Positions 18,100 through 22,197 of a stretch of DNA of 62,988 nt are shown here, piece after piece. The notes under the pieces are model-generated. The model saw nothing but the letters and a program-made list of their open reading frames with translations, had not been told where the DNA came from and searched no databases. The stretch comes from Chitinophagales bacterium (GTDB taxonomy: Bacteria; Bacteroidota; Bacteroidia; Chitinophagales; JADJOU01): the NCBI GenBank assembly GCA_016787225.1, contig JAEUUY010000026.1, positions 236,414 to 299,401 of the forward strand. The letters run 5' to 3'. A program made the position numbers and the translations under genes. Numbering within the stretch: position 1 is the first letter of the stretch; the number at the start of each line of letters is the position of its first letter.

Positions 18100-19185
18100 A
18101 TGATCAATCAAGAAAACGTCCTCATAGCATTGAGCAGAGTGCCAGAACCAGATTTGAAAAAAGATTTGGTCACTCTCAATATGATACAAGATATCAAAAT
18201 CGACGGACAAAAAATTTCCTTCACCATAGTATTGACTACCCCTGCCTGCCCCTTAAAAGAACTTATTCATAACAATTGCGTCAAGGAATTGAAGGCTGAT
18301 TTTGGGGAAGATATCGAAGTAAATATTCACATGACTTCTAACGTATCCTCAACGAGAAATAAAGACATCAATATACTCCCCAATGTCAAAAACATAGTCT
18401 GCATTTCTTCTGGCAAAGGTGGTGTAGGAAAATCTACTGTGACAGTGCAGCTGGCATTGGCTCTCAGTAAAATGGGTGCTAAGGTAGGCATACTCGACGC
18501 AGATATTCATGGACCTTCTATTCCTATCATGCTCGGCATGAAAAATAAAAAACCACAGACACGAGAGATTAAAGAAAAAATTTATATACAACCTGTTGAG
18601 TATAATGACAATTTAAAAGTACTATCCATAGGTTTCCTAATCGATGAAAGACAAGCGATAGTTTGGAGAGGTCCCATGGTCACCTCTGCTCTCAAGCAGT
18701 TTATCAATGATGTCCTTTGGGGTGATCTAGACTACCTCATCCTCGATATGCCTCCGGGAACAGGGGATGTGCAACTCACCATCGCCCAAACACTAAAAGT
18801 TACTTGTGCCGTTATCGTCTCCACCCCACAAAAAGTAGCTATAGCCGATGCTCGAAAAGCCTTATCCATGTATCGGGTGCAAGGAGTAGAAATTCCAGTA
18901 GCTGGGGTGATAGAAAATATGGCTTACTTCGTGCCGCATGATATGCCCGATAAGAAATATTATATCTTCGGTAGTGGTGGAGCGAAAAATCTAGCTTCGG
19001 ATTACGAAGTCGCCTTCCTAGGTGAAGTGCCCCTCACTGAAAATCTCCGCGAATGCGCCGATAATGGTCAAGAACTTACCGCCGATAACCAAATCGTCTT
19101 AGATAGTTTTCAAACTATAGCACAGAAACTGGCTAGGGAGATATCGGTGTTGAATAGTGAAAGCTTAGTAAACTCTGTAAATTAA
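18100..19185 (+). CDS. mrp: Mrp/ApbC-family iron-sulfur carrier ATPase
   Basis: Cytoplasmic P-loop ATPase (Mrp/NBP35) that delivers Fe-S clusters to apoproteins. An N-terminal MIP18/DUF59 domain (residues about 5-80) with TPACPLKELI is followed by the deviant Walker A SSGKGGVGKST (103-113), then DADIHGPSIP and LILDMPPGTGD. The usual C-terminal CxxC after the NMAYF motif is replaced by NMAYFVPHDMPDKKY, as in many Bacteroidota homologues. Length is 361 residues. The small membrane-protein operon begins 33 nt downstream, so co-transcription is possible. Confidence 0.93.
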   Translation: MINQENVLIALSRVPEPDLKKDLVTLNMIQDIKIDGQKISFTIVLTTPACPLKELIHNNCVKELKADFGEDIEVNIHMTSNVSSTRNKDINILPNVKNIVCISSGKGGVGKSTVTVQLALALSKMGAKVGILDADIHGPSIPIMLGMKNKKPQTREIKEKIYIQPVEYNDNLKVLSIGFLIDERQAIVWRGPMVTSALKQFINDVLWGDLDYLILDMPPGTGDVQLTIAQTLKVTCAVIVSTPQKVAIADARKALSMYRVQGVEIPVAGVIENMAYFVPHDMPDKKYYIFGSGGAKNLASDYEVAFLGEVPLTENLRECADNGQELTADNQIVLDSFQTIAQKLAREISVLNSESLVNSVN

Positions 19186-19218: not shown

Positions 19219-19464
19219 ATGACAGATATTAGAATTGCGTTATCTTACCTTGTACCTATACTAACGTATACATTTGCGACAATAGGCTCTTTAATTCTGC
19301 TTGCAGGTCTTTATGATTATTTTATTCAGGATAAAAAACAAATAGGAAAAAAACTAATACTTTGGTGGTTATACGGTGGTATTTTTATACTTGTTTGCTG
19401 GATTATATTAGGTGGTATATGCATTATATATCCAACTAAATCAAATATAACTATTCATTCATGA
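19219..19464 (+). CDS. Small two-helix membrane protein with GGxC motif (1 of 4)
   Basis: An 81-residue protein with no family I recognise. Helix 1 (about 9-31) is followed by a basic loop QDKKQIGKK and helix 2 (about 46-71), which contains GGIC at 65-68. The basic loop predicts a cytoplasmic hairpin with both termini outside, placing Cys68 near the outer face. The same architecture recurs in the genes at 19461, 19701 and 20621. Its stop overlaps the next start as ATGA, so translation is probably coupled. The neighbouring Lgt-like and radical-SAM genes suggest a role in lipid chemistry. Confidence 0.75.
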   Translation: MTDIRIALSYLVPILTYTFATIGSLILLAGLYDYFIQDKKQIGKKLILWWLYGGIFILVCWIILGGICIIYPTKSNITIHS

Positions 19465-19691
19465 AAACCTTGCTTGAATATTATGCAGTAGTTAGTGGAT
19501 TTATTATAATAGTATTGGTAGCAGCTATATTAATTCTTTTAATAATTTTATTAATCGTATTTTTGACTAGTAATGAGAAAGCTAAATTATCTTTTATTTT
19601 AAAACTACTTGTATATTCAATTTCTGCGTTGACATTACTTGGAGGAAGTTGTTTGGTTCTTTTTGAAACAGGAGTTTTGTCTTTGCATTAA
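19461..19691 (+). CDS. Small two-helix membrane protein with GGSC motif (2 of 4)
   Basis: A 76-residue protein: helix 1 (about 11-36), short basic loop SNEKAKL, and helix 2 (about 44-69) with GGSC at 61-64. There are no other cysteines. Loop charge predicts an outside-facing C-terminus and Cys64 near the outer membrane surface. It starts within the stop of the previous gene (ATGA) and ends 9 nt before the next. Function unknown. Confidence 0.75.
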   Translation: MKTLLEYYAVVSGFIIIVLVAAILILLIILLIVFLTSNEKAKLSFILKLLVYSISALTLLGGSCLVLFETGVLSLH

Positions 19692-19700
19692 ATATAAAGT

Positions 19701-19889
19701 ATGGGAATAGCAGCAATTTTATGGATTTTACTACCTCTGATAGGTGTATTTTTCATCATAACAGGGATAATTGTATGGTTAACTGACAATTTTAAAAAAG
19801 CATCAAAGTATCTTATTGCAGGTTTGGTATGTATATTGATTTCTGGTGGTTCTTGTTTTTTAGCTCTAAAGGATTTTAATCCTAATTGA
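19701..19889 (+). CDS. Small two-helix membrane protein with GGSC motif (3 of 4)
   Basis: A 62-residue protein: helix 1 (about 4-27), basic loop DNFKKASK, and helix 2 (about 38-56) with GGSC at 49-52, ten residues from the C-terminus. The GGSC context resembles that of the previous protein. Four nt separate it from the Lgt-like gene. Function unknown. Confidence 0.72.
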   Translation: MGIAAILWILLPLIGVFFIITGIIVWLTDNFKKASKYLIAGLVCILISGGSCFLALKDFNPN

Positions 19890-19893
19890 TAAT

Positions 19894-20619
19894 ATGATTC
19901 CTATCAGAATTGAGGGTCTACCGACTGGTTTCAATTTTCATTTTATAATGGAAAGTTTGGCTTTTATTGTTGCGTTTCGGGTTTATTGGTACCAAAGAAA
20001 AAATTATACCGATACGATTTCAACACTTGCCAGACTAAGCACTATTTTAGGAGCCATGATTGGCGCATTAATTGGCTCTAGGTTAGTGGGCTATCTGGAG
20101 GTTTCTTCAAATTTAACTTCCATAGATTTGCGACTTCTCATGTATAATAAAAGTATAGCAGGTGGCTTCTTCGGAGGAATACTCGGCGTAGAGTTGGTCA
20201 AATTTATTTTAAAAATTAAATCGTCTACAGGTGATGTTTATGTTTTTCCGATATTAATAGGACTTATTATTGGTCGAACAGGTTGTTTTCTATCAGGAGT
20301 AGATGATGGGACGATTGGATTACCTACAGATAGTATGTTAGGCATGGATTTAGGCGATGGTATTAAAAGATTCCCTACAGCACTTTTTGAACTTATATTC
20401 GCTTTCATTTTGCTATTATTTTACATTAGAATTAGAAATTATCCAATGCCTTTAGGATATAGATTTATGATATTAATGATTCTGTATTTTATGTTTCGAT
20501 TTTTTATTGAATTCTTAAAGCCTTTATATATTAGTTATCTCGGGCTAAATGCAGTTCAATGCTGTTGTATTCTTGTTTTTATTTACTACACCTTCTATTT
20601 AAAATATAAACCTAAATAA
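19894..20619 (+). CDS. Divergent Lgt-family (prolipoprotein diacylglyceryl transferase-like) membrane protein
   Basis: A 241-residue polytopic protein with the Lgt fold signature: GSRLVGYLE (61-69), AGGFFGGILG (89-98), IGRTGCFLSG (126-135), RFPTALFELI (159-168) and YFMFRFFIEFLKP (198-210). In authentic Lgt the second block is HGG with an essential His (H103 in E. coli) and the third is GRxxNF(I)NGE with an essential Asn (N146). Here these are Ala and Cys, while the Arg of GR and the late Arg are kept. It is therefore a paralogue that may use another acceptor or donor. It sits tightly between four small Cys-containing membrane proteins and a radical-SAM gene. The main lgt of the organism is probably elsewhere. 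Confidence 0.85.
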   Translation: MIPIRIEGLPTGFNFHFIMESLAFIVAFRVYWYQRKNYTDTISTLARLSTILGAMIGALIGSRLVGYLEVSSNLTSIDLRLLMYNKSIAGGFFGGILGVELVKFILKIKSSTGDVYVFPILIGLIIGRTGCFLSGVDDGTIGLPTDSMLGMDLGDGIKRFPTALFELIFAFILLLFYIRIRNYPMPLGYRFMILMILYFMFRFFIEFLKPLYISYLGLNAVQCCCILVFIYYTFYLKYKPK

Positions 20620-20620
20620 C

Positions 20621-20818
20621 ATGGGATTTTCTTTCTTTTCGTTCAGCTTTATTCCTTACCTGTTATTTGCTTTGGGTCTTTATTTATACTTGAAAGGTAA
20701 TACAGAACAGAAAAAGAAGGTAGGGAAATATATTCTATTTACCATCATTGGCATACATATTCTAGGGGCTATCCTCCTTATTGTTTCATTTGGTATGTGC
20801 TTATTAAATTTAAACTAA
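20621..20818 (+). CDS. Small two-helix membrane protein with GxC motif (4 of 4)
   Basis: A 65-residue protein: helix 1 (about 5-25), basic loop NTEQKKKVGK, and helix 2 (about 37-61) with FGMC at 57-60, the Cys five residues from the end. It matches the layout of the three upstream small proteins but keeps only one Gly of the GG pair. One nt separates it from the Lgt-like gene and 2 nt from the radical-SAM start. Function unknown. Confidence 0.72.
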   Translation: MGFSFFSFSFIPYLLFALGLYLYLKGNTEQKKKVGKYILFTIIGIHILGAILLIVSFGMCLLNLN

Positions 20819-20820
20819 CT

Positions 20821-22197
20821 ATGGCAGAAAGAGACTACATTTATTACGATTACACAAAAAGCTTATGTCCAGAGTGCTTGCATTTAGTTGATACTAAAAT
20901 AGTATTCAAAGATGAAAAAGTATGGATGTATAAACATTGCAAAGAACACGGCAATAGCAAAACTATCATTGCAGACGATATAGAATATTATAAAAATATC
21001 CGTAACTATAACAAAGCATCGGAAATGCCAGTTCATTTTGGGACACCAGTCAAATATGGGTGCCCATATGATTGCGGGCTTTGCACAGACCATGAACAAC
21101 ATTCATGTTTATCATTAGTAGAATTAACTGACCGATGTAACCTTACTTGCCCAACTTGCTATGCCTCTTCTTCCCCTACTCACGGAAGACACAGGAGTTT
21201 TGAGGAAATAGAAAAAATGTTTGATACCATAGTTCGCAATGAAGGGACAGCCGATGTAGTGCAGATAAGCGGTGGCGAGCCAACTGTGCATCCTAAATTT
21301 TGGGACATTATGGATATGGCAAAAACAAAAAAAATACGCCACATTATGCTCAATACCAATGGCGTTAAAATTGCGAAGGATAAGAGATTTGCTGAAAGAT
21401 TAGCTAGCTACATGCCAGACTTTGAAGTCTATCTTCAGTTTGACAGTTTAAATCCTGAAATACTAAAGACTATCCGAGGAGAAGACCTTTCTGACATTCG
21501 AATGAAAGCCATTGAGCATTTAAATGAATTCAATCTTTCTACAACACTAGTAGTTACTTTACAAAAAGGACTAAATGACCATGAAATTGGAGACACAATC
21601 CGCTATGCCTTATCTCAAAAAGCTGTCCGAGGTGTTACTTTTCAACCTACTCAAGTAGCTGGGAGAAATGTCCATTTCGATGCAGCAAATCAAAAAATAA
21701 CGCTTACTGAAGTGCGAAGAAAAATCTATGAGCAAACGGATATCTTTACTCCAGAAGATATCATTCCTGTTCCATGCAATCCTGACAATTTGGCTATGGC
21801 GTATGCTCTAAAATATAATCACGAAGTTTTCGCATTGACACGCTGGGTAAATCCGCAGGACTTATTAAACAACTCAAAAAATACAATTGTTTATGAACAA
21901 GATGAAAGACTTCAAAAATATTTGTATGACATGTTTAGCACAGGAATTTCGGTAGAAAAAGCAGAAACAAAACTAGCCGAACTCATGTGCTGCCTCCCAT
22001 TGATCCCTCAAGGCAATCTTGACTATTCTAATCTATTTAGAATTATTATTATGAATTTTATGGATGCTTATGACTTTGATGTGCGAGCAGTTAAAAAATC
22101 CTGCGTACATATTATCGATGATAACATGAAACTCATTCCGTTTGAAACGATGAATCTATTTTATAGAGATGGAAAGGTAAAAGAATTTCAGAAATAA
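20821..22197 (+). CDS. Radical-SAM protein related to tetraether lipid synthase (COG1964 type)
   Basis: A 458-residue protein counted from the ATG at 20821, chosen over one at 20797 that overlaps the previous gene. The radical-SAM cluster motif CNLTCPTC is at 106-113 and the SAM-binding GGEP at 151-154. N-terminal cysteines CPEC (16-19) and Cys40 resemble a rubredoxin-like site, and CPYDCGLC (81-88) plus Cys96 suggest an auxiliary cluster. The C-terminus has KSCVHI and IPFETMNLFYRDG. This layout matches archaeal Tes (MJ0619 family), which joins lipid chains through unactivated C-H bonds, and bacterial relatives proposed to make membrane-spanning lipids. The lipid-joining role here is inference; family membership is fairly secure. 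Confidence 0.85.
   Translation: MAERDYIYYDYTKSLCPECLHLVDTKIVFKDEKVWMYKHCKEHGNSKTIIADDIEYYKNIRNYNKASEMPVHFGTPVKYGCPYDCGLCTDHEQHSCLSLVELTDRCNLTCPTCYASSSPTHGRHRSFEEIEKMFDTIVRNEGTADVVQISGGEPTVHPKFWDIMDMAKTKKIRHIMLNTNGVKIAKDKRFAERLASYMPDFEVYLQFDSLNPEILKTIRGEDLSDIRMKAIEHLNEFNLSTTLVVTLQKGLNDHEIGDTIRYALSQKAVRGVTFQPTQVAGRNVHFDAANQKITLTEVRRKIYEQTDIFTPEDIIPVPCNPDNLAMAYALKYNHEVFALTRWVNPQDLLNNSKNTIVYEQDERLQKYLYDMFSTGISVEKAETKLAELMCCLPLIPQGNLDYSNLFRIIIMNFMDAYDFDVRAVKKSCVHIIDDNMKLIPFETMNLFYRDGKVKEFQK

Follow-up and report, generated by a model that had tools for sequence, protein, structure and literature searches.

On the plus strand of a 62,988-nucleotide stretch of a Chitinophagales genome (GenBank assembly GCA_016787225.1, contig JAEUUY010000026.1; hereafter the window), positions 19219–22197 hold a compact block of six genes, encoding four small membrane proteins (sm1, sm2, sm3 and sm5), a paralogue of Lgt (LgtL) and a Tes-like radical S-adenosylmethionine (SAM) enzyme (rSAM). 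All six open reading frames (ORFs) are present, and their positions bear out the layout given in an earlier note made from the sequence alone: six plus-strand genes with gaps of −4 to 9 nt (−4, 9, 4, 1 and 2 nt in order) and one ATGA overlap. Chance falls far short of explaining this arrangement. G+C content in the block is a little low (33.1% versus 35.8%), and promoter and terminator scans gave no more matches than chance. Comparison across genomes shows that LgtL, rSAM and small membrane proteins that share a single conserved cysteine form a conserved gene module in at least two phyla, and the gene set is suggestive of a route, so far undescribed, for attaching lipids to membrane proteins and remodelling those lipids.

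LgtL (19894–20619, 241 residues) scores 66 bits on Pfam LGT (cut-off 24.9) and lies under the NCBIfam lgt equivalog cut-offs (36.8 of 334 and 27.4 of 118.9 bits). As the host genome has a separate housekeeping-type Lgt elsewhere (391 residues, 129.6 bits), LgtL is a true paralogue, in line with the earlier note. An AlphaFold2 model (predicted local distance difference test, pLDDT, 87.5) predicts an Lgt fold, with Escherichia coli Lgt as its sole significant match in the PDB (5azb, E 3.2e-5, TMq 0.59). Residue equivalences from a hidden Markov model alignment and motif order indicate that LgtL retains R128, E166, Y198 and R202, the counterparts of E. coli R143, E202, Y235 and R239; from the essential E. 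coli residues Y26, H103, R143, N146, Y235 and R239 it thereby keeps R143, Y235 and R239, the Arg/Tyr set that lines the second, diacylglyceryl-binding site (PMC4728403). H16 replaces Y26, C131 (invariant in alignment A1) replaces N146, and H103, the His of HGGL, has become Val/Ala. The HGGL region is the proposed peptide-binding part of E. coli Lgt (PMC4728403), and H103 is replaced in several phyla (PMC13251419). The host's own housekeeping Lgt reads SILGGL and GRLGC and is likewise without H103 and with Cys for N146, so that these two changes do not exclude transferase activity; for this reason we rejected their loss as proof that LgtL is inactive.

A tree of 47 Lgt proteins, read as unrooted, has a well-supported branch (98/97) that parts all LgtL proteins from other Lgts and takes in sequences from Mycobacterium and Nonomuraea as well as divergent forms from two further genomes (G213 and G246). 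Given this separate branch and the score under the cut-off, we also rejected LgtL as a second housekeeping Lgt. Set beside the Lgt of the Lgt–LspA–Lnt pathway (E. coli structures 5AZB and 5AZC), LgtL shares the predicted fold and the R143/E202/Y235/R239 set but differs in its sub-threshold NCBIfam scores, its replaced Y26, H103 and N146, its branch and its linkage to rSAM. The second mycobacterial Lgt homologue, MSMEG_5408, has Y26H and N146C exactly as in LgtL; it is described as a presumed weak Lgt only, and the description is without an rSAM or small-protein context (PMC13251419). Judged by these sequence features, it is quite possible that LgtL is catalytically active as a transferase and uses a different acceptor.

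The last gene of the block, rSAM (20821–22197, 458 residues from an ATG start that agrees with homologues), matches Radical_SAM and the MJ0619-family zinc ribbon, and its alignment with MjTes (MJ0619; PDB code 7TOL, E 1.5e-80) covers the whole protein. The radical SAM (seleno)protein family TrsS (NCBIfam NF045646) is its best-scoring curated family (335 bits against a cut-off of 490) and Tes gives 293 of 450 bits; because both scores lie under cut-off, 'Tes-like', the term of the earlier note, is accurate where 'Tes' is not, and filing under either family was rejected. Its CX2C-X20-CX2H metal site (C16, C19, C40 and H43) has exactly the rubredoxin-like spacing of MjTes, C81/C85/C88 with H91 correspond to the N-terminal (cluster N) ligands of MjTes, the SAM-cluster motif CX3CX2C is formed by C106, C110 and C113, and M411 occupies the place of the labile Met439; the metal sites, cluster ligands and M411 are all invariant in alignment A2. 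The MjTes metal ligands listed by PMC9433317 are kept at three of four sites. rSAM differs from Tes/GDGT-MAS (7TOL/7TOM), the tetraether lipid synthase of archaea that couples lipid tails through C(sp3)–C(sp3) bonds, in being under the family cut-off, bacterial and linked to LgtL, in its extra invariant cysteines C319, C390 and C391, and in having no Tyr at the position of Tyr459, a residue dispensable in MjTes (PMC9433317). End-to-end homology to MjTes and the kept ligands make lipid-tail chemistry our most economical guess for rSAM.

The four small genes lie on either side of LgtL and have no Pfam or NCBIfam match above cut-off. All are predicted to encode two helices: sm1 (19219–19464, 81 residues), sm2 (19461–19691, 76 residues, whose start overlaps the sm1 stop in the ATGA), sm3 (19701–19889, 62 residues) and sm5 (20621–20818, 65 residues). 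Their cysteines are Cys68 of sm1 (codon 19420–19422, in LGGIC, 13 residues before the C-terminus), Cys64 of sm2 (codon 19650–19652, in LGGSC), Cys52 of sm3 (codon 19854–19856, in SGGSC, 10 residues before the C-terminus) and Cys60 of sm5 (codon 20798–20800, in SFGMC, 5 residues before the C-terminus). Related loci carry one to five small genes, placed before, between or after the two enzyme genes and starting −23 to 72 nt from the preceding stop, most commonly at −4 (often ATGA-coupled). That these are real genes as a class follows from coding-type codon variation in a homologous Sphingobacterium small gene, where 22, 13 and 62 of 78 columns vary at codon positions 1, 2 and 3. The common Bacteroidota form has three helices and a C-terminal end of the type GFSxC-L/F-G, with N11, G79 and C83 as its only invariant residues; the label 'small two-helix GGxC' given at first was right about a conserved Cys and too narrow about the rest. 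An AlphaFold2 model of a small protein has three helices at low confidence (pLDDT 73; predicted template modelling score, pTM, 0.49) and was excluded from further use.

Very diverse as they are in sequence, the small proteins have the conserved Cys in 78 of 79 cases across all forms. In these 78, the loop before the last helix is net positive (72 proteins), a median of 16 uncharged residues then leads up to the Cys, the C-terminus follows 2–14 residues later (median 6), and the tail is neutral (64 proteins). Gly stands at −4 in 62 and Ser or Gly at −2 in 60. As a control, only 11 of 198 other in-to-out helices (5.6%) have a Cys at the equivalent place. By the positive-inside rule, the positive loop strongly suggests that the last helix runs in-to-out and places the Cys near the outer face of the inner membrane. 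The motif resembles a lipobox in position and small residues, as though shifted to the C-terminal end. Bacterial lipoproteins carry an N-terminal signal peptide with [LVI][ASTVI][GAS]C, which the small proteins lack. The likeness to the Lgt pathway lies in a putative acceptor Cys that closes, on the outer side, a hydrophobic helix preceded by positive charge; the difference is that the protein is an integral membrane one and the Cys is close to its C-terminus.

To gauge conservation we ran rSAM and LgtL profiles, with thresholds, over an even set of 296 Bacteroidota genomes. Genomes positive for rSAM number 24 and those positive for LgtL 25, spread over 16–17 of 140 genera: LgtL is present in all 24 rSAM genomes, one genome has LgtL only and 271 have neither (Fisher p 2e-34, uncorrected for kinship). 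The two genes lie within a few kilobases of each other in 22 of the 24. Scanning contigs with rSAM yielded 47 loci; with a single exception these are labelled as Bacteroidota or as a group within it, and LgtL is nearly always directly upstream or one small gene off. At least one small two- or three-helix Cys protein is encoded in 36 of 37 complete-flank neighbourhoods from other species, the exception (L056) having runs of ambiguous sequence adjoining rSAM. In one genome (G130) rSAM, LgtL and a small Cys protein are on three separate contigs, and in another (G355) LgtL lies away from rSAM and the small gene; genes dispersed yet retained in this way argue for joint function. Distances among LgtL and among rSAM proteins correlate (r 0.95 over 45 pairs), as expected of co-inheritance. 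A profile of the three-helix small proteins, run through the genomes, is insensitive to two-helix forms and missed the window's own small genes, so that absence in that search means little.

Beyond Bacteroidota, cases in Actinomycetota were drawn from a plasmid collection. Mycobacterium branderi and M. avium plasmids have the order LgtL, two small proteins, rSAM; their small proteins are unrelated overall and yet have the same kind of C-terminal end, with SGGLCTGLNP, TVGVCTGLNP, TAGICTGLNP and SAGYCTGLNP. Nonomuraea carries the LgtL–rSAM pair, with a three-helix protein just upstream that partly overlaps LgtL and ends in SAGICTGINP. The linkage that the earlier note had proposed to look for between Lgt-like, rSAM and small-protein genes in other genomes is thus strongly positive in both Bacteroidota and Actinomycetota. 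In three divergent loci (G213, G246 and G384) another membrane protein follows rSAM directly, and in the first two it matches the isoprenylcysteine carboxyl methyltransferase (ICMT) and phospholipid methyltransferase (PEMT) families (PF04140; 59 and 50 bits). Such neighbours hint at lipid or lipidated-Cys chemistry, and are only suggestive. CaaX processing, in which isoprenylcysteine carboxyl methyltransferase acts, offers a parallel in that ICMT-like genes adjoin rSAM in these loci and the small proteins finish a few residues past a Cys; unlike it, the window block is without an ICMT-like gene, and linked genes for a prenyltransferase or CaaX protease are absent.

We tentatively favour the reading that the block encodes a protein–lipid modification module, in which LgtL would lipidate the Cys of the small proteins and rSAM would modify lipid chains. 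The outward Cys thiol would receive a diacylglyceryl moiety, or a related lipid, that LgtL would take from phospholipid. This step is supported by the placement of that Cys: an inside-positive helix with a thiol at its outer end is what an Lgt requires, and just this feature is conserved across proteins that are otherwise unrelated. With less certainty, and by homology, rSAM would abstract hydrogen at an alkyl chain terminus and make a C–C or C–S bond. Its target would be the donor lipid ahead of transfer or, once transfer is done, the lipid on the protein; two chains, or a chain and the protein, would end up joined. A more specific pathway, widespread and so far undescribed, in which LgtL lipidates the Cys of the C-terminal transmembrane helix and rSAM then joins the bound tails to another chain, tying the proteins to dimeric or membrane-spanning lipids, we regard as possible and rather doubtful. 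The earlier note's idea of a lipid or lipoprotein modification system has been strengthened by the conserved co-occurrence and by a Cys placed as an Lgt-type enzyme would need; lipid attachment and tail cross-linking are what we infer beyond that.

Several observations weigh against a protein–lipid module. E. coli Lgt cannot do without any one of Y26, H103 and N146, and LgtL has His for Y26. A cytosolic rSAM and an outward Cys could meet only through the lipid, and the orientation of the small-protein helices is predicted from charge alone. The residue just before the Cys is frequently V, T, I or L, a departure from the canonical lipobox that is at odds with LspA cleavage. Two paralogues of the three-helix small protein, the linked L025 (7391–7672, plus strand) and the distant L085 (10410–10679, minus strand), are without the conserved Cys. 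One genome (G038) has LgtL without rSAM, and another (G111) has a Cys-bearing small protein while both rSAM and LgtL are missing at the thresholds applied.

The full-length homology of rSAM to Tes would also suit a pathway of membrane lipids. Here rSAM would couple the tails of phospholipids, giving dimeric or membrane-spanning products akin to iso-diabolic lipids or branched glycerol dialkyl glycerol tetraethers (brGDGTs); LgtL would transfer a diacylglyceryl unit to a lipid or a small molecule; and the small proteins would serve as subunits or lipid chaperones instead of substrates. Iso-C15:0 is common in Bacteroidota, which counts in favour of such a pathway. Iso-branched tails end like isoprenoid ones, and membrane-spanning lipids have been proposed for bacterial Tes homologues (Zeng et al., PMC8941075). 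Such a pathway leaves unexplained why unrelated families in two phyla have one outward, near-terminal Cys, and why copy number varies from 1 to 5 per locus. We know of no tetraether report for these taxa, and consider this alternative unlikely.

Tandem, divergent small genes beside a radical SAM enzyme, with one Cys in a short conserved end motif, recall ribosomal peptide precursors. On that account rSAM would modify the peptide (for example by a thioether or a different bond at the Cys), LgtL would anchor or export it, and cleavage could free a short C-terminal lipopeptide. rSAM, however, is of the Tes/TrsS type and has a zinc ribbon and the cluster ligands of Tes, and peptide maturases are not among its best matches; the conserved Cys is predicted to lie within a helix near the outer face, remote from the cytosol; and the entire helix is conserved, not just a core peptide. 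We hold peptide precursors to be improbable. Translational coupling of the genes and the invariance of C131 in LgtL would fit small proteins that are anchors or assembly subunits of an LgtL–rSAM complex, their Cys being structural or redox-active, for example paired with C131. A Cys also stands at that position in the housekeeping Lgt of the host, an enzyme that lacks such a partner, and several diverged copies per locus would be unusual for a stoichiometric subunit; this role, too, appears improbable. An accidental grouping by shared transfer without joint function would account for the patchy distribution (LgtL occurs in only one of five genomes of the host's genus), but 24 of 24 co-occurrence, the same gene set in two phyla and the unlinked yet co-present genes of G130 and G355 make it very improbable, and the genome survey already contradicts it.

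The novelty lies in the system, each enzyme being a new subfamily of a known superfamily. We found no system of Lgt plus radical SAM enzyme described in 5.39 million open full-text papers (subscription papers and curated annotation notes being outside the scope), and to our knowledge no described system combines an Lgt-type enzyme, a Tes-like rSAM and small Cys proteins. Were the protein–lipid module correct, it would be a second bacterial route of Lgt-type lipidation, one with acceptor proteins dedicated to it and modified at a C-terminal site, and would extend radical SAM steps on lipids beyond archaeal and brGDGT membranes. The reactions of bacterial Tes homologues are unknown (Lloyd et al., PMC9433317); the small proteins would give a concrete, testable substrate for those in about 8% of the sampled Bacteroidota genomes and in some mycobacteria, and carriers include the culturable genera Sphingobacterium, Chryseobacterium and Flavobacterium.

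Some further loci bear on these families. In two divergent loci (L080, 4486–8088; L081, 3435–6941) the genes encode rSAM, an ICMT-like protein, an LgtL with GCCYG and a small Cys protein, and the unannotated stretch between the ICMT-like gene and LgtL is DUF4395-like by eye. ICMT seems to occur with Lgt again in the host genome (C11, about 301 kb; L003, 1357–3291, minus strand), where a 644-residue protein GRLRCLVQGCCHG with an Lgt match of 64 bits appears to be a fusion of ICMT/PEMT-like, PAP2-like and Lgt-like parts. A Mycolicibacterium vanbaalenii plasmid (L097, 4315–8345) offers another kind of Tes-like gene context: this TrsS-like locus, the one read in detail, encodes a Tes/TrsS-like rSAM, CcdA, a disulfide oxidoreductase and a methyltransferase and, unlike the window block, has no LgtL. 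The open literature on TrsS itself comes to one table entry. The orphan small gene of G111 (L086, 3643–4053, minus strand) has its Cys in TFATCGG, and the gene beside it is similar to a neighbour of the G130 small gene. On a Streptomyces plasmid (L103, 1413–1628) a small membrane protein without a terminal Cys has an ATGA overlap with a plasmid-borne lgt. In the window, a gene for an Mrp/NUBPL-type Fe–S carrier ATPase (18100–19185, same strand) ends 33 nt upstream of the block, and could be co-transcribed with it or a mere neighbour.

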